Shown piece by piece: positions 7,198-61,498 of a stretch of 64,000 nt of DNA. The DNA lies in NCBI RefSeq assembly GCF_006175945.1, contig NZ_VAJL01000001.1, forward strand, positions 1,302,001 to 1,366,000, in the 5' to 3' direction. The notes under the pieces were generated by a model. The model searched no databases. It had not been told where the DNA came from and saw only the letters and a program-made list of their open reading frames with translations. How positions within the stretch are numbered: position 1 is the first letter of the stretch; every line of letters begins with the position of its first letter. The stretch is from Chryseobacterium mulctrae. GTDB lineage: Bacteria > Bacteroidota > Bacteroidia > Flavobacteriales > Weeksellaceae. Both the position numbers and the translations under genes were made by a program.

Positions 7198-7270
7198 TGA
7201 CCCGGCTGGGATTCGAACCCAGGACCCATACATTAAAAGTGTATTGCTCTACCAGCTGAGCTACCGAGTC
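7198..7270 (-). tRNA. tRNA-Lys (anticodon TTT), copy 2
   Basis: 73 nt on the minus strand. The acceptor stem is GACTCGG/CCGGGTC with one G-T pair and discriminator A. The D arm is GCTC/GAGC, the anticodon stem is ATACA/TGTAT with loop CTTTTAA (anticodon TTT, Lys), and the T arm is CTGGG/CCCAG with loop TTCGAAT. No CCA is encoded. It is identical over its length to the copy at 7470-7542. It is the last gene of a three-tRNA minus-strand unit. Confidence 0.97.
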
Positions 7271-7351
7271 GGTCACATCAAATTAACGACGACAAATATA
7301 AAATTAATTTTATAAAATATCAATGATTAATTAAATATTTTTTTTCTGCAG

Positions 7352-7434
7352 TGCCTGCGACTGGACTCGAACCAGCACATCCTTAGGAAACCACCCCCTC
7401 AAGATGGCGTGTCTACCAATTTCACCACACAGGC
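7352..7434 (-). tRNA. tRNA-Leu (anticodon GAG)
   Basis: 83 nt on the minus strand with the long variable arm of a class II tRNA. The acceptor stem is GCCTGTG/CGCAGGC, discriminator A. The anticodon stem CCATC/GGTGG encloses loop TTGAGGG, giving anticodon GAG (reads CUC and CUU, Leu). The variable arm has a hairpin around TTTCCTAAGGA, and the T loop is TTCGAGT. It lies between two identical tRNA-Lys genes and was probably transcribed with them. Confidence 0.97.
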
Positions 7435-7469
7435 AATAAAATTACAAAAATCTAGTAATTTTTCGCTAG

Positions 7470-7542
7470 TGACCCGGCTGGGATTCGAACCCAGGACCCA
7501 TACATTAAAAGTGTATTGCTCTACCAGCTGAGCTACCGAGTC
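7470..7542 (-). tRNA. tRNA-Lys (anticodon TTT), copy 1
   Basis: 73 nt on the minus strand, the same sequence as the copy at 7198-7270: acceptor GACTCGG/CCGGGTC, anticodon loop CTTTTAA, T loop TTCGAAT, discriminator A. It is the first tRNA after the promoter at 7598-7628. The match extends a few bases into both flanks (GTGACC before the acceptor), as expected for a recent duplication. Confidence 0.97.
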
Positions 7543-54943: not shown

Positions 54944-55618
54944 TTATATTTGGTGTTTGAGTAGGTGTGCACTGAATCCGAAATCTTTTGCGCCTTTATA
55001 ATCAGCAATCGGATTATCGCCAATATGCAAAATCTGCTCCATTTGAAGTTCCTGATTTCTGATCTGATTTTTCACTTCCTGAAAAACCAAAGGATTGGGT
55101 TTAGAACATTTAATTTCGTCAGAATAAATATGAAAATCGATGTATTGATCAAGATTTTCGTTCATCAAAAACTTTCGCATAGTTTTTCCTTTGATGAAGC
55201 CTGTATTGCTAAGAATATTGATTGTTTTTCCCTGATTTTTAATTTCATCAAAAAAATTGTGCAGTTCGTCAAAAATCACCACCGGTTTATATTCTAAAAA
55301 CAAATCTTCACTTTTCTGGTAAAACTCATTAAGATTTTCCTCATTCAACTGCTTTATATCGACATTCAATGAATTTAAAATCAATAAATAAATCTCAAAA
55401 GTATCTACATTCCCACCAATTACTTCATTAATATTATTGCAGAGATCATCATAATATTTCACCGATTTTGCAACTTCACCGATGGGCTTTTCCACATTAA
55501 AAAACGAAGAAAAAAGCTCAACTCTTTTTGCTTTAAATTCAGGGTGAGATTTTATTAAAGTAAGCCACAGATCAAACGAAAAATGATCATGCCTGTGAAT
55601 GTCGATATCTGTTTTCAA
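54944..55618 (-). CDS. HAD superfamily hydrolase of the Ter operon
   Basis: 224 residues. Motif I is FSFDLWLTLI (Asp16 the nucleophile; the second position of the DxD is Trp18, as in haloacid-dehalogenase-like members that use only one aspartate there), motif II is ILSNTGF, motif III is CSKPNPLVF with the lysine, and motif IV is HIGDNPIADYKGA with the two acidic residues. The helical cap (residues 25-110) is of the C1 type. It is the first gene of the Ter operon; a TATCTTTG box lies on the minus strand at 55719-55726. Phosphatase activity is likely. Confidence 0.85.
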   Translation of the reverse strand: MKTDIDIHRHDHFSFDLWLTLIKSHPEFKAKRVELFSSFFNVEKPIGEVAKSVKYYDDLCNNINEVIGGNVDTFEIYLLILNSLNVDIKQLNEENLNEFYQKSEDLFLEYKPVVIFDELHNFFDEIKNQGKTINILSNTGFIKGKTMRKFLMNENLDQYIDFHIYSDEIKCSKPNPLVFQEVKNQIRNQELQMEQILHIGDNPIADYKGAKDFGFSAHLLKHQI

Positions 55619-55826
55619 AATAGTATAAGTTAATTGTTTTAGCTTTAATTGAAAAAGATTTTTTTAAATATTTTATATTTTCTAATCATCACTCAGTGTT
55701 TTATTTTTCAATTCCTTTCAAAGATAAAATTTTTCATTCAATCTTGATTTTTTTTAAGATTTTTTAAGATTTTAATTAAAGACGAAACAACAGCGGTTTT
55801 ACTTTTCCTAAAAAATATTGCTAAAA

Positions 55827-55858
55827 TTTTTGTCATTTAAATATTTTTTATAATTTCG
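55827..55858 (+). promoter_or_regulatory. promoter of the EF-G paralogue leader
   Basis: TTTTTG (55827-55832), 18 nt, TAATTTCG (55851-55858). It fits the same spacing seen for the tRNA and Rrf2 promoters in this window, with one base off in the -7 box. A start near 55862-55866 would put the leader ORF about 15 nt downstream. Confidence 0.6.
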
Positions 55859-55878
55859 CAACCGATTAAGAATCAACA

Positions 55879-55965
55879 ATGTCAACAAAAATGATAAATA
55901 TTATAACTTTAAGCAATCCTATCAGAGCTGTGTACTTTGGTAGCACTAAATATTTATCTGAATAA
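55879..55965 (+). CDS. putative leader peptide (28 codons)
   Basis: ATG TCA ACA AAA at 55879, stop TAA at 55963-55965. The product starts MSTKMINIITLSNPIR and ends AVYFGSTKYLSE. It lies right after a promoter and 32 bp before a strong terminator, with the gene for an EF-G-like protein 238 bp further. This is the position of a leader ORF that controls attenuation. A hexamer CCTATC inside the ORF (55918-55923) is repeated in the 5' arm of the terminator (55998-56003) and can pair with its 3' arm. Whether it is translated is unknown. Confidence 0.5.
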   Translation: MSTKMINIITLSNPIRAVYFGSTKYLSE

Positions 55966-55993
55966 CGATCGACCTTTACAAAACAATATATTG

Positions 55994-56023
55994 AAGGCCT
56001 ATCTGTTCAGATAGGTCTTTTTT
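55994..56023 (+). terminator. leader terminator upstream of the EF-G paralogue
   Basis: AAGGCCTATCT (55994-56004), loop GTTC, AGATAGGTCTT (56009-56019), with one G-T pair, then a run of Ts to 56023. It sits between the leader ORF and the EF-G-like gene, so full-length transcription needs read-through or a second promoter. Confidence 0.8.
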
Positions 56024-56202
56024 GCTACCCTACTTTTCAGCTTTTACATTCGAAAAACTTCTGTTGTTCGGTGATAAAATTTTGGAAATTTTCTTTTAAA
56101 TGCAAGTTTTATTAGAGTTAAATCTTTGCGCGTAAAAATCAAAAAAAACATCACTAAACATTATTTCAGAAGTTTAAAAATCAATTATTTAAATTAAACA
56201 AA

Positions 56203-58269
56203 ATGAAATACAACACACGAAATATAGGAATAATAGCACACGTCGACGCCGGAAAAACCACACTCACGGAAAGGTTGCTTTATTACACAGGAATGATTCA
56301 TAAAATCGGAAACGTAGACGATGGAAATACCACGATGGATAAAGATATTCAGGAGAAAAATCGAGGAATTACGATTTCATCTGCAGCGATTTCCACACAA
56401 TGGAAAAAAGATCAGAATGTTTTTAATATCAATATTATTGATACTCCAGGACACATTGATTTTGCAGTGGAAGTTGAACGTTCTTTACGAGTTTTAGACA
56501 GCGTTGTTGCGGTTTTTTGTGCTTCTTCGGGAGTTCAGCCACAAACGGAAAACGTTTGGTTTCAAGCCGAAAAACATGGGATTTCAAAAATCTGTTTCAT
56601 TAATAAAATGGACAGAATCGGAGCTGATTTCTTTGCTGTTTTAAATGAAATCAGAACAAAACTGAATGCAGTTCCTTTAGCTTTGCAAGTTCCGATTGGT
56701 TCTGAAGACAATTTTGAAGGAGTCATTGATTTGATTAAACAAAAAGCGTTGTATTGGATCGATGAAAACGGCGAAACGATTATTGAAAAGGAAATTCCTG
56801 AAAACCATAAAACAGAAGCAAATGAATTCAGAATAAAATTAATGGAAACATTAGCCGAATTTGATGAAATTTTCTTTGAAAAATTTATGGATTCCGAAAC
56901 TCAGATTTCTGAAGAAATGATTATTGAATCGATACAAAGAACTTGTCAGTCAAGGAGTTTAGTTCCTGTTTTATGCGGTTCTGCATTTAAAAACAAAGGT
57001 GTTCAACCTTTACTTGATGTAATTGTCAATTATCTTCCAGCTCCGAATCAATTGCCTTCTATTAAAGGGAAAGATGCGAAAACGGAAGAAACAATCGAAC
57101 TTGAAAGAACCGAAGAAGAAACTTTCTCAGGATTGGTTTTCAAGGTTGTGATTGATAAACACATTGGAAAACTGGCAATGTTGAGAATTTATTCTGGAAA
57201 AATCAATTCTGGAGATACTGTTTTGAATGTGAGAACTGGTGAAAACTTCAGAATTTCGAGGATTTTACAGATGCAGTCGGACAAAACGTTAACCATCGAA
57301 GAAGGAAAATCGGGAGACATCGTTGCTTTAACAGGAATAAAAGATGCGAAAACAGGAGATTCTTTATCATCTGTTGAAAGACCTGTTTTGCTTGAATCGA
57401 TCACGATTCCTGCTCCAGTTATCCGGGTTTCAATTGAACCCAAAACGAATGCTGATGAAAAATCTTTCGGTTTGGTTTTAGCGAAAATTCAGGAAGAAGA
57501 TCCTTCGTTGGTTGTTGAAAGAGACAAACAAACGGGAGAAACTTTATTGAGTGGTTTGGGAGAATTGCATCTTGAAGTTACTTTAGAAAAAATCCGATTA
57601 AATCATGGAATTGAAATTAATCAAGGAAAACCTAAGGTTTCTTATCGAGAAATTTTAACCGAGACCAGAAGACACAGAGAGAAACTTTCAAAACAAAACG
57701 GTGGAAGCGGACAATTTGCTGACATTACTTTTGAAATCGGACCTCGTGAAGACAACGAAATCGGTTTGGAATTTATTAATCAAATTAAAGGCGGAGTGAT
57801 TCCGAATGAGTTTATCCCTTCGATTGAAAAAGGTTTCAGAGAAGCCATGGAAAACGGAGTTTTGAGCGGAAATCCTCTGGAAAGTATGAAAATTACACTT
57901 TTGGATGGATCCACTCACAGTAATGATTCTCATGCTTTAGATTTTGAAATTGCTGCAAGAGACGGTTTCAGAGAAGTTGTAAAACAATGTAAACCGAAAT
58001 TATTGGAACCGATCATGCAGGTTGAAATTCAAAGTATTGAAGAATATACCGGAGTTGTGACTGCCGATATCAACAAACGAAGAGGAATGATTACTTCAAT
58101 TGATGAAAAATCAGGAAGAAAAATCTTCGTAGCGGAAATTCCTTTGGCTTCTACTTTTGGATATATTTCTGATCTGAGAACGTTGACAAGTGGTAGAGCT
58201 TCGATCAGCATGAAATTGTCGCACTATGCTTTGGTGCCTGATTTCATTGCAAATACATTAATAACTTAA
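56203..58269 (+). CDS. elongation factor G paralogue
   Basis: 688 residues, a full EF-G/translational GTPase. The G1 loop is AHVDAGKTTLTERLL (residues 12-26), switch region RGITISSAAIS, G3 DTPGHIDF with the catalytic His, G4 INKMDRIG. Domains II to V follow, including GELHLEVTLEKI, VSYREILT and the C-terminal RRGMITSI and RASISMKLSHYALVP. It stands alone, not in a str operon, so it is an EF-G2-type paralogue rather than the main EF-G. In Bacteroides an EF-G2 paralogue supports translation during starvation. The stop is followed by a terminator. Regulation by the upstream leader is inferred. Confidence 0.9.
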   Translation: MKYNTRNIGIIAHVDAGKTTLTERLLYYTGMIHKIGNVDDGNTTMDKDIQEKNRGITISSAAISTQWKKDQNVFNINIIDTPGHIDFAVEVERSLRVLDSVVAVFCASSGVQPQTENVWFQAEKHGISKICFINKMDRIGADFFAVLNEIRTKLNAVPLALQVPIGSEDNFEGVIDLIKQKALYWIDENGETIIEKEIPENHKTEANEFRIKLMETLAEFDEIFFEKFMDSETQISEEMIIESIQRTCQSRSLVPVLCGSAFKNKGVQPLLDVIVNYLPAPNQLPSIKGKDAKTEETIELERTEEETFSGLVFKVVIDKHIGKLAMLRIYSGKINSGDTVLNVRTGENFRISRILQMQSDKTLTIEEGKSGDIVALTGIKDAKTGDSLSSVERPVLLESITIPAPVIRVSIEPKTNADEKSFGLVLAKIQEEDPSLVVERDKQTGETLLSGLGELHLEVTLEKIRLNHGIEINQGKPKVSYREILTETRRHREKLSKQNGGSGQFADITFEIGPREDNEIGLEFINQIKGGVIPNEFIPSIEKGFREAMENGVLSGNPLESMKITLLDGSTHSNDSHALDFEIAARDGFREVVKQCKPKLLEPIMQVEIQSIEEYTGVVTADINKRRGMITSIDEKSGRKIFVAEIPLASTFGYISDLRTLTSGRASISMKLSHYALVPDFIANTLIT

Positions 58270-58270
58270 A

Positions 58271-58308
58271 AAACGAGGGCTGTAAATTTTATTTTGCAGT
58301 CCTTGTTT
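58271..58308 (+). terminator. terminator after the EF-G paralogue
   Basis: AAACGAGGGCTGTAAA / TTTGCAGTCCTTGTTT, 16 bp with three G-T pairs and a 6-nt loop, directly after the stop at 58269. Confidence 0.7.
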
Positions 58309-58402
58309 GGGTTATAGAGTCTATAGTGATTTTTTTCTCTCGCTGATTTGCAGATTAAGCAGATTTTTTTTGATTGCATTTCATACAATCCTTTTTTAAA
58401 TC

Positions 58403-58415
58403 GTCCCTTCGGGAC
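58403..58415. repeat. intergenic hairpin repeat, copy 2
   Basis: GTCCC-TTC-GGGAC, the same small hairpin as at 43204-43216, preceded by AAAT and followed by ACA. It lies between the EF-G paralogue and SulP, both ending there, in about 200 bp that otherwise hold only the terminator. Confidence 0.5.
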
Positions 58416-58471
58416 TACAGGTTATCAACCTACAACTCTCAAACACTCCAACCTTAAACTCAAAAACGCTC

Positions 58472-60007
58472 CTACTTTTCAGGCATTACTTTATACGTCG
58501 GATCATCCTGAATATTTACTTCGATAACAGCTTCTGCGTTTTTCAACATTTTTCGACAGTCTTCGCTGAGATGTTTTAAATGTATTTTTTTATTTTGTTG
58601 AGCGTATTTTTTTGATAATTTATCTAAAGCGTCGATTGCGCTCATGTCAACAATTCGGCTTTCTTTGAAATCGATGACAACTTGTTCGGGATCGTTTTCC
58701 GGATCAAACTTATCTGTAAAAGCAGTGACAGAACCGAAGAATAAGGGTCCTAAAATTTCGTAATGTTTAACTCCGTTATCATCAGTAAATTTTCTTGCAC
58801 GAATTCTTTTGGCATTATCCCAAGCAAAAACCAAGGCAGAAATAACAACTCCTACCAAAACAGCCAATGCCAAATTGTGAAGAACAATCGTAATTAAAGC
58901 CACTGTAATTCCAACAAAAATATCAGATTTTGGCATTTTGTTGACAATACGGATTGAAACCCACTGAAAAGTACTGATTGCAACCATCATCATTACCCCT
59001 ACCAAAGCCGCCATTGGGATTTTTTCAATAAACGGAGCTCCTACAAGAATGATAATTAAGATTGTGATTGAAGCAATAATTCCTGAAAGTCGAGCTCTAG
59101 AACCTGCATTTAAGTTAACCAAAGTCTGTGCAACCATCGCACAACCGCCCATTCCACCGAAGAATCCGTTGGTAATATTTGCTAAACCCTGAGCAACAGA
59201 TTCTTTATTGGCACTTCCTTTTGAATTGGTAATTTCGTCAACCATTGATAAAGTTAAGAGTGATTCGATCAACCCAACACCTGCCATAATCATAGCATAA
59301 GGGAAAATAATCTGTAAAGTTTCTAATGAAAAAGGAAGCTTAGGAATATGAAAACTCGGCAAACTACCGCTTATTTTAGCAATATCAGCAACTGTTTTTG
59401 TATTAATTCCAAAGCCTAAAACAACTCCAAAGACAACTAATATAGCAACCAAAGAAGCTGGAACTACTTTTGTGATTTTTGGAAAGAAATAAACAACAGC
59501 AATCGTTAAAGCCGTTAAACCCGACATTACATACAATGAAGAACCTTGCAACCAACCCACTACTCCATTTGCATCAACAATTTTAAATTGCTCTACTTGC
59601 GCCATAAAAATAATGACCGCCAAACCATTTAGAAAACCGTACATTACAGGTTGAGGAATTAACCGTACAAATTTCCCGAGTTTGAAAACCCCGACCAATA
59701 GCTGTAAAATTCCTGCAAGAACTACCGTTGCGAAGAGATATTCTACGCCGTGAGATTTTATTAATGCAATTAAAACAACGATTGTTGCTCCTGCTCCACC
59801 GGAAACCATTCCGGGACGACCACCCAAAACTGCAGTCACTAAACCCATCATGAAAGCAGCATATAATCCGGTTAGTGGAGAAAGTCCCGCCAAAATTGCA
59901 AATGAAAGCGATTCAGGAATCATAGTCATTGCAACAGTAAAACCAGCTAAGATTTCATTTTTAAGATTTATTTTTTTGGAGAAATCAAATAAGGCAAGAG
60001 ACTGCAT
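58472..60007 (-). CDS. SulP family anion transporter
   Basis: 511 residues with about twelve membrane segments and a C-terminal STAS domain (about 410-505: EQVVIDFKESRIVDMSAIDALDKL). The first segment has the SulP text GFTVAMTMIPESLSFAILAGLSPLTGLYAAF, and NITNGFFGGMGGCAMVAQTLVNLNAGSRARLSG is typical. Members import sulphate, bicarbonate or other anions, with sodium or protons; the substrate here is unknown. It is convergent with the EF-G paralogue and divergent from the small HTH pair, with a large AT-rich gap. Confidence 0.9.
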   Translation of the reverse strand: MQSLALFDFSKKINLKNEILAGFTVAMTMIPESLSFAILAGLSPLTGLYAAFMMGLVTAVLGGRPGMVSGGAGATIVVLIALIKSHGVEYLFATVVLAGILQLLVGVFKLGKFVRLIPQPVMYGFLNGLAVIIFMAQVEQFKIVDANGVVGWLQGSSLYVMSGLTALTIAVVYFFPKITKVVPASLVAILVVFGVVLGFGINTKTVADIAKISGSLPSFHIPKLPFSLETLQIIFPYAMIMAGVGLIESLLTLSMVDEITNSKGSANKESVAQGLANITNGFFGGMGGCAMVAQTLVNLNAGSRARLSGIIASITILIIILVGAPFIEKIPMAALVGVMMMVAISTFQWVSIRIVNKMPKSDIFVGITVALITIVLHNLALAVLVGVVISALVFAWDNAKRIRARKFTDDNGVKHYEILGPLFFGSVTAFTDKFDPENDPEQVVIDFKESRIVDMSAIDALDKLSKKYAQQNKKIHLKHLSEDCRKMLKNAEAVIEVNIQDDPTYKVMPEK

Positions 60008-60719: not shown

Positions 60720-61139
60720 ATGCTATACAAAAACATACACATAGGTAAGTATATCAAGGAAATGGTAGATGACAAGAACATTTCTATAGAAAGAATCTGT
60801 AATTTTCTTGCAAAGGATGAAGAGTTTGTGGAGAAAGTATATGAAAGCAAATCCATAGAAACTGACATTCTTTTGAGATGGAGCAAGTTACTGGAATATG
60901 ATTTCTTCAGATTATACAGTTCACATTTGATATTGTATGCTCCACCTTCAGCTGTGAATAAAACCGACAATCCAAAATCTGAAAAAGCACCGCAGTTCAG
61001 AAAAAACATTTACACTCAGGAAATAAAAAATTTCATTCTTGACAGGATCGAATCCGGGGAAATGACTCAGGCAGAAGTAATCAAAGAATACTCTATTCCG
61101 AAGAGCACCCTTCACCGCTGGATTCAAAAGAAAAGATAA
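60720..61139 (+). CDS. small HTH protein, first of a pair (transposase-like annotation)
   Basis: 139 residues. The N-terminal half resembles a short XRE/ComK-like regulator text (IHIGKYIKEMVDDKNISIERICNFL, then SIETDILLRWSKLLEYDFFRLY). The C-terminal part is a helix-turn-helix of the IS3/homeodomain type (SGEMTQAEVIKEYSIPKSTLHRWIQKK). I know this family as an abundant paralogue set in Chryseobacterium, usually labelled transposase, and followed by a second small HTH gene as here. There is no DDE domain and no terminal repeats, so it is probably a regulator, not a mobile gene. Confidence 0.65.
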   Translation: MLYKNIHIGKYIKEMVDDKNISIERICNFLAKDEEFVEKVYESKSIETDILLRWSKLLEYDFFRLYSSHLILYAPPSAVNKTDNPKSEKAPQFRKNIYTQEIKNFILDRIESGEMTQAEVIKEYSIPKSTLHRWIQKKR

Positions 61140-61162: not shown

Positions 61163-61498
61163 ATGAGACCAAATTACAACAGGATCTACCAAGATCTTTT
61201 GCAAAAACAACATCCCGAAAAGCTAGAATGTCCGAAAATAAGAGAACAATTGGACAGATTAGACTCAACGGAAGAGATCTTAAAGCTGAATGAAAAACTT
61301 TTTAAGCAATGTAAAGAAAGTTCAAAAACCAATCAGCAGCTTAAAACTTATGACAAGAAGACCATGATGAAGCTTTTGAATTATCAGAAAAAACACAATT
61401 TCTCTACGAGCTTTATGTCGAAAAAGTATAACATCAGCCGAACTACTTTTTCAAAGTGGAAAAAATTACTGGAAGAAGAGCTTCAAAGCCACTCATAG
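61163..61498 (+). CDS. small HTH protein, second of a pair
   Basis: 111 residues, starting 23 bp after the first gene. It begins MRPNYNRIYQDLLQKQHPEKL and ends with an HTH segment (NFSTSFMSKKYNISRTTFSKWKKLLEEE) similar in kind to the C-terminus of its neighbour. It is basic, with no catalytic motif. The constant pairing with the first protein suggests that the two act together. A terminator follows 4 bp after the stop. Confidence 0.65.
   Translation: MRPNYNRIYQDLLQKQHPEKLECPKIREQLDRLDSTEEILKLNEKLFKQCKESSKTNQQLKTYDKKTMMKLLNYQKKHNFSTSFMSKKYNISRTTFSKWKKLLEEELQSHS

Follow-up and report, generated by a model that had tools for sequence, protein, structure and literature searches.

A candidate leader-peptide attenuator upstream of a second EF-G gene in Chryseobacterium mulctrae and its relatives

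Why would a bacterium place a second gene for elongation factor G (EF-G), which drives ribosomes along messenger RNA, behind a short open reading frame (ORF) and a transcription terminator? This question is raised by a locus in a stretch of 64,000 nucleotides (nt) of the Chryseobacterium mulctrae genome (contig NZ_VAJL01000001.1, positions 1,302,001 to 1,366,000; hereafter "the window", whose own numbering is used throughout). Based on sequence comparison and predicted folding, we think it probable, though far from assured, that the leader of this gene is a ribosome-controlled transcription attenuator, in which stalling on a 28-codon peptide would turn on production of a spare EF-G that is probably tolerant of inhibitors. 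The features of the locus, in order, are as follows:

55827-55858, plus strand: Bacteroidota-type promoter, as read from the sequence (TTTTTG at 55827-55832, a gap of 18 nt, then TAATTTCG at 55851-55858)
55879-55965, plus strand: leader ORF of 28 codons and a stop, encoding MSTKMINIITLSNPIRAVYFGSTKYLSE; the putative arrest core is codons 7-18
55930-55932, plus strand: Val18 codon, GTG, identical in 112/112 leaders
55939-55944, plus strand: 5' side of antiterminator helix 1, GGTAGC (Gly21-Ser22 codons), partner 56024-56029
55955-55964, plus strand: 5' side of antiterminator helix 2 (Leu26 codon into the stop), partner 56004-56013; the last two pairs are taken from the window sequence
55967-55976, plus strand: 5' side of antiterminator helix B, 3' of the stop codon; its partner is the terminator 5' arm at 55994-56003
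55994-56005, plus strand: terminator 5' arm
56008-56019 and 56018-56023, plus strand: terminator 3' arm and U-run, respectively; the hairpin as a whole spans 55994-56019
56024-56029, plus strand: GCTACC immediately 3' of the U-run, the 3' side of helix 1
56030-56202, plus strand: spacer to the gene, 68-337 nt among relatives; in the window, 179 nt lie between the end of the U-run and the ATG at 56203
56203-58269, plus strand: EF-G paralogue gene, 688 amino acids

An original prediction, made from the window alone, had described the promoter, the 28-codon ORF, the hairpin with its U-run, a spacer of about 180 nt and a set of short complementary motifs, and all of these were present where it had placed them. 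The hexamer CCTATC occurs at 55918-55923 and again at 55998-56003, GATAGG at 56010-56015, CCTT at 55973-55976 and AAGG at 55994-55997. The gene was correctly described as EF-G-like, as its product scored 840.5 bits with the TIGR00484 model (cut-off 659.4). No Rfam family reached its gathering score in this region.

The leader was compared across 112 loci, namely the window, 68 loci from a collection of species genomes and 43 from a second genome set, with organisms overlapping between the sets. The species-genome scan gave 134 confirmed places, of which the best 80 were used: 64 in Chryseobacterium, four in other Bacteroidota (L089; L091; L100, from Psychroserpens; and L101, from Dokdonia) and 12 in other phyla. 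Among these best 80, the closest relatives of the paralogue were from Chryseobacterium, with C. balustinum first at 94%. The 12 loci from other phyla (L105, L106 and L108-L117, 43-46% identical) were excluded from all counts; none of them had the leader, and six adjoin an rpsG-like ORF. The leader was present in 112/112 loci, 111 being found by motif and L100 by reading. In the same-genus genomes that were searched for both elements (n = 39), it was found in 21/21 genomes with the gene and in 0/18 without. Leader and terminator thus form a conserved unit tied to the EF-G paralogue, and a lack of conservation among relatives, which the original prediction had named as grounds for abandoning an attenuator, is excluded.

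From the comparative sequence evidence, the terminator competes with one long predicted hairpin, whose 5' half consists of leader codons 21-28 and post-stop bases and whose 3' half consists of the terminator arms and the nucleotides that follow the U-run. Covariation was analyzed in an alignment of 64 distinct regions, to which L100 does not belong and in which counts are inflated by related rows. In helix 1 all six pairs were formed in 64/64 rows, two of the six with changes on both sides, and the rows were divided between GGC/GCC (33 rows) and GGT/ACC (31 rows). Over 111 loci the partners were GCTACC-GGTAG(C/T), GCTGCC-GGCAGC or ACTACC-GGTAGT, and the GGT and GGC forms were never mixed. Outside the genus, helix 1 is kept with altered letters in L089 and L101 (GGTAGT/ACTACC in the latter) and with the same letters in L091. 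In L100, GGTAGGAT pairs with ATTCTACC although Ser22 is replaced by Arg, so that selection on the RNA appears separable from selection on the peptide. Eight pairs of helix 2 (55955-55962 with 56006-56013) were 97.3% paired over the 64 rows, with both sides changed in distant copies. Together, helices 1 and 2 were paired in 98.4% of 896 cells, versus 28-55% when one side was slid by 1-3 columns, and they contained 37 cells with two-sided changes, a number reached by 0/500 shuffles. Helix B was paired in 86.4% of 485 cells and had 33 such cells (again 0/500 shuffles as high); its best pair, 55973/55997, was U-A in 32 rows, C-G in 26, U-G in 5 and unpaired in 1. The terminator itself was paired in 94.2% of 764 cells, with its innermost pair failing in 32 and with 18 two-sided-change cells.

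These comparisons modify two of the pairings originally proposed. The CCTT/AAGG pairing had been described as weak and as masking the terminator 5' arm; it proves to be the best-covarying part of helix B, which masks that arm. The CCTATC/GATAGG pairing, from codons 14-15 of the ORF, is present and 94.3% kept (of 384 cells), but the best-supported rival is the hairpin of codons 21-28 and post-stop bases. The hexamer was rejected as the terminator's chief competitor since it had the fewest two-sided-change cells (6, versus 18 in the terminator, 33 in helix B and 37 in helices 1 and 2). Of the six base pairs it would form, one is broken in 14/64 rows, and among 500 shuffles its paired percentage was reached by 5, its two-sided pairs by 53, its two-sided cells by 6 and its covariation score by 0. 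Its conservation may be partly borrowed, because its 3' partner is shared with helix 2 and the terminator, and the hexamer may still be a minor competitor.

Two exclusive folds offer a decision that a ribosome could make. We predicted folding in 69 sequences (the window and the 68 species-genome-collection loci), representing the ribosome by a mask assumed to cover 15 nt, counted from the start of the P-site codon. The terminator was the best predicted fold in 69/69 sequences when the ribosome was placed on the last codon. When Arg occupied the P site instead, the best predicted fold was the antiterminator in 64/69 once the tail had been made, but in only 31/69 at the end of the U-run. For the window sequence, the antiterminator was favored for a ribosome at any of codons 11-21, the switch to the terminator came at the step from codon 21 to codon 22, and helix 1 was free only with the P site at Arg16 or an earlier codon. 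The antiterminator starts where an Arg16-stalled ribosome would end, an agreement that is suggestive but does not amount to proof. Helix B would be important for the outcome because it can sequester the terminator 5' arm while the 3' arm has yet to be transcribed. When unmasked, the leader RNA is predicted to fold into the long rival hairpin (z -3.0). The original proposal that ribosome position could choose read-through is partly supported by these results, in that two exclusive predicted folds are conserved with the gene and have a geometry by which ribosome position could select between them.

The leader peptide provides a second line of evidence. In an eight-row alignment that includes the distant copies, Met1, Ile8, Arg16, Val18 and Gly21 were invariant, and a shared core, N/H-I-I/F/L-x-x-S/N-x-A/P-I/V-R-A/T-V, was kept into four distant flavobacterial loci. 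Pairwise comparison of 49 distinct 28-codon leaders, in which related leaders are not independent, gave 2631 synonymous versus 2729 non-synonymous differences in codons 7-20, where the possible single changes number 27 versus 99. There was no synonymous excess in codons 2-6 (47 versus 464 differences, with 9 versus 36 possible). The conserved core lies outside the paired region, and this, together with the synonymous changes, argues for selection on the amino-acid sequence; judging from these sequences, the leader peptide itself is under selection, beyond that on the RNA. In the second half of the ORF hardly any bases vary, as would be expected of a stretch that had a further role as RNA. Val18 is encoded by GTG in 112/112 leaders, though GTG makes up 13-28% of Val codons in the long ORFs of seven of these sources, and no pairing partner was found for this codon. 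It may have a role as the codon in the A site during a stall. Overall, the sequences suggest that the leader is a probable arrest peptide.

Could the ribosome act on this leader without any stalling signal in the peptide? In the first alternative to be considered, which we regard as unlikely though it survives better than the others, the leader would be a general sensor of coupling between translation and transcription: any lag in translation, due to starvation, cold or many antibiotics, would expose codons 21-28, the antiterminator would form and the spare EF-G would be made. Such a sensor needs no exact stall site, since the antiterminator of the window is favored across codons 11-21, and this breadth is in its favor. 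It leaves unaccounted for, however, the amino-acid conservation of codons 7-18 in four distant loci, outside the pairing region, as well as the fixed GTG codon of Val18.

An arrest peptide could instead respond to a drug bound in the ribosome. Here the leader would sense an antibiotic of the exit tunnel or peptidyl transferase center (a macrolide, phenicol or the like) and the EF-G paralogue would aid drug-carrying ribosomes. There is precedent in similar leaders that attenuate resistance translation factors, such as that of Listeria hflXr with its RLR leader (PMC6310831). Against it, the R/K-x-R/K motif of macrolide-type leaders was found in 0/111 motif-found leaders and was not found in L100 either, and the product is an EF-G and no known tunnel-clearing factor, with a score of 371.6 bits in the tet_protect model for tetracycline-protection proteins, versus a cut-off of 775. 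We consider this explanation to be a rather poor prospect.

Still more doubtful is a switch for nutrient stress, in which the paralogue would be an EF-G2-like starvation factor and the leader would gauge charged tRNA. In Bacteroides, fusA2 mRNA is up 238-fold on carbon limitation, although a DNA-binding activator is the switch of that gene (PMC6989115). Runs of three identical residues, a feature of amino-acid attenuators, were found in 0/111 leaders and not in L100, and the paralogue scored 445.6 bits with the Bacteroides EF-G2 model (EFG2_Bacteroid), versus a cut-off of 1000.

Whether the hairpin controls the gene at all depends on where the gene's transcription starts. Upstream of the leader, the -7 element of Bacteroidota promoters, whose consensus is TAnnTT[T/C]G, was present in 68/69 sequences (shuffled expectation 1.8), and in 60/69 it was accompanied by TTTG 17-23 nt further upstream (shuffled expectation 0.0). 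A pattern search of the spacer found a full promoter-like site in 0/69 sequences and a bare -7 element in 11/69; a main promoter 3' of 56023, the other finding that the original prediction had set against itself, thus gains nothing from the search. It is therefore very improbable that the hairpin merely ends the transcript of a constitutive small RNA or micro-peptide while the EF-G gene has its own downstream promoter, as that view, to which the long and variable spacer (68-337 nt) lends some appeal, is opposed by the lack of full promoter-like sites there and by the leader being missing wherever the gene is missing.

We return to the reading in which stalling on the leader switches on a spare EF-G. 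If this is so, the paralogue should be considered for what it shares with, and how it departs from, other EF-Gs. It is 48% identical to the genome's best other match, an EF-G, and it is further from EF-Gs of solved structure than the main EF-G is (659.7 versus 872.5 bits to the 2rdo sequence). We compared 62 intact paralogues (seven broken copies of the 69 were left out) with 30 EF-Gs of the class, namely the genome's main EF-G and 29 of 44 best matches other than the window's gene, which is not a random sample. The P-loop, RGIT, DTPGH and NKMD motifs were present in 62/62 intact copies, and the domain IV tip loops were recognizable but altered. For residue positions we used Staphylococcus aureus numbering, anchored on His457 of the GELH motif. 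Position 461 is T or R in 62/62 paralogues versus I, L or V in 30/30 comparison EF-Gs; position 464 is K in 61/62 versus R in 29/30; position 436 is S in 62/62 versus T in 30/30; and position 453 is L in 59/62 versus M in 30/30. The paralogue also differs at residues of the argyrin site, S417, T671 and Y683 of Pseudomonas aeruginosa EF-G1. The His457 anchor is consistent with the residue names in PMC11190147. Changes listed as conferring fusidic acid resistance include L461K/S, R464C/H/S, T436I and M453I (PMC3993491), and F88L, H457Y and L461K are given as the highest-level single changes, which shape the drug pocket (PMC12493156). From these sequence differences, tolerance of the paralogue to an EF-G inhibitor is a lead.

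We hypothesize that the switch would work as follows. A ribosome that completes the leader would cover the 5' half of the rival hairpin, and for that reason the terminator is predicted to form, with transcription ending near 56023. Were translocation slow or blocked, the ribosome would halt near Arg16/Ala17, with the N-I-I-T-x-x-x-P-I-R-A-V peptide in its tunnel. Its front edge would then lie just before Gly21, and the post-stop bases would mask the terminator 5' arm during synthesis. With the 5' arm masked, the polymerase would continue into the EF-G gene. The paralogue, with its intact GTPase motifs and altered drug pocket, would replace the inhibited main EF-G in translocation for as long as stalling lasts. 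Most likely, the leader responds to inhibition of EF-G itself; our leading guess as inducer, and a tentative one, is fusidic acid or a compound like it.

A number of observations weigh against this scheme. In equilibrium folding with the ribosome held at Arg16, the terminator was still favored at the end of the U-run in 37/69 sequences. Of those 37, 33 switch to the antiterminator after the tail is made, three stay with the terminator and L091 finally fell into neither class; L101 fell into neither at any stage. In a codon-by-codon scan, L050, L064 and L100 had a terminator probability of at least 0.93 at the U-run end from codon 10 on. Where the terminator is favored at that point, read-through would have to rely on helix B forming first, and helix B has flaws: the outermost pair is missing from 37 rows and the adjacent one from 14/64, its count of two-sided pairs was reached by 22/500 shuffles, and by eye the helix is poor in both L100 and L101. 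Helix 1 is better conserved than any other but can have no role in the termination decision, since the polymerase makes its 3' side only after the U-run; its function may be to keep the read-through RNA open. Independent compensatory events were few, as the gene tree implied two for column pair 39/137 and five for column pair 74/104, with each side having changed equally often in both. The terminator itself was missed by a generic scan, which listed none in 55300-58800, probably because the stem-extension rule of that scan eats the U-run. A purpose-written scan found stem and U-run in 60/69 sequences, the misses being L045, L049, L079, L082, L083, L089, L097, L102 and L100, the last of which was not scanned because its leader is without the motif used. 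On the protein side, F88, D434 and H457 are unchanged in the paralogue. Within S. aureus positions 404-478, 6/20 listed resistance sites differ under a strict rule versus 8/55 others (Fisher p 0.18); with 461 added, the value is 0.10, and there is no clear concentration at resistance sites. Lastly, seven of the 69 paralogue copies are frame-broken (L044, L045, L047, L085, L086, L092 and L107), so the gene may be dispensable. Three of these have one in-frame stop and four a frameshift, with the leader ORF intact in all seven; they may reflect real decay or sequencing errors.

The distribution of the gene suggests how gene and leader are inherited. The paralogue was found in 33/60 same-genus genomes sampled (E 1e-230), of which G019 and G025 are not among the loci compared, and in 23/395 genomes of the order (E 1e-236), all 23 being of the genus Chryseobacterium. 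Across 68 loci, a phosphoribosyltransferase-like gene (ter side) lies near 62 and a SulP gene near 63, and none of the window's neighbor genes was found beside the four distant copies (L089, L091, L100 and L101). The leader-gene unit thus has one conserved chromosomal place in Chryseobacterium and other neighbors elsewhere in Bacteroidota. Both neighbors were kept in four of six same-genus genomes without the paralogue, and the leader was found in 0/6; since the neighbors are kept and the leader is missing where the paralogue is missing, gene and leader seem, from these sequences, to come or go together. At the empty site the neighbors are ~1 kb apart in genomes G009, G121 and G365 and 2.1 kb apart in G144, versus 3.5 kb in the window. 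The locus could be a self-contained, transferable resistance unit, in which an arrest peptide that senses EF-G blockage, an antiterminator lying in the last codons of that peptide and an inhibitor-proof bypass EF-G travel together, although we regard this extension as doubtful. No match to the leader region was found among 72,556 plasmid records.

Searches with leader profiles gave a similarly narrow range. When the window's genome and four genomes that contain compared loci were searched with a profile, G000, G816, G817 and G818 each had a single clear match and G819 had none (best E 0.98); the genome of L089 lay outside the search. A profile of eight leaders matched 21/366 genomes of the order, all same-genus and paralogue-bearing, and 4/365 genomes of the phylum, comprising three of the same genus and one other. 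This last match (L207) was rejected as chance, as it is in antisense orientation within a ribosomal protein operon and is immediately preceded by a stop. The idea that other genes carry leaders of a wider family was likewise rejected: a degenerate codon pattern matched 97/395 genomes of the order, but outside the genus most matches were background.

Additional features were noted in and around these loci. Downstream of the SulP gene, the window has two small ORFs that are helix-turn-helix-like by eye (60720-61139 and 61163-61498), and these recur in at least 51 and at least 16 of 68 loci, many of which end nearby. L100 has a tandem array of near-identical units directly upstream of its leader promoter (2300-2540) and a second hairpin with a T-run between attenuator and EF-G gene (2928-2957), as if the terminators were in tandem. 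Elsewhere in the window, three consecutive tRNA genes lie on the minus strand at 7198-7542.

If the proposed attenuation is real, it would be a leader-peptide attenuator on an EF-G gene, of which we found none in open-licence PubMed Central literature; neither this leader nor an attenuated EF-G gene in Bacteroidota was reported there, as far as titles and the beginnings of abstracts reveal, and six leader peptide strings had no match in that literature. For Bacteroidota, a phylum in which ribosomes rarely rely on Shine-Dalgarno sequences, the leader would also be a new candidate arrest peptide, and it would provide a natural reporter of translocation-blocking compounds. A reason for the retention of a second EF-G by some bacteria would be suggested as well, namely that it is a spare, kept silent unless the first has been poisoned. 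From the comparison come the candidate codons, bases and residues for such a switch and its product.

How does this locus compare with known systems? In trp-type attenuators, the position of a ribosome on the leader selects between two RNA folds, as would be the case here; the present leader differs in having no run of regulatory codons, and its downstream gene is not biosynthetic. Closer in design is rli80-hflXr of Listeria, which also has a short leader ORF, a terminator and antiterminator, a second copy of a factor acting on the ribosome and a stalling signal (PMC6310831). It differs in that the Chryseobacterium gene encodes an EF-G, its leader has no RLR motif and its antiterminator includes the leader's last codons and bases past the U-run; in addition, attenuation of rli80-hflXr has been demonstrated by experiment, whereas the Chryseobacterium attenuator is proposed from sequence and predicted folding. 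SecM-type arrest peptides likewise have a short core with Ile-Arg-Ala, the SecM arrest sequence being given as FSTPVWISQAQGIRAGP in the abstract of PMC10192921. In the present leader the core has IRAV or IRTV and is not followed by Gly-Pro, and the likeness is a lead only. In Bacteroides, fusA2 (EF-G2) is likewise a second, stress-induced EF-G gene of a member of the Bacteroidota, but it is controlled by the DNA-binding activator BT4338 (PMC6989115), and the window paralogue falls below the EFG2_Bacteroid cut-off. As to the signal, the staphylococcal fusB leader and its alternative mRNA folds are said to sense ribosomes stalled by fusidic acid (PMC12493156, PMC12190993); text on such leaders in PMC12561750 gave no leader sequence. 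FusB is a rescue protein that binds EF-G and its control is at translation start, in contrast to the whole EF-G and terminator switch proposed here. By analogy, the Chryseobacterium leader would belong to the known class of ribosome-dependent transcription attenuators of resistance genes, hflXr-like in its design and perhaps fusB-like in its signal.

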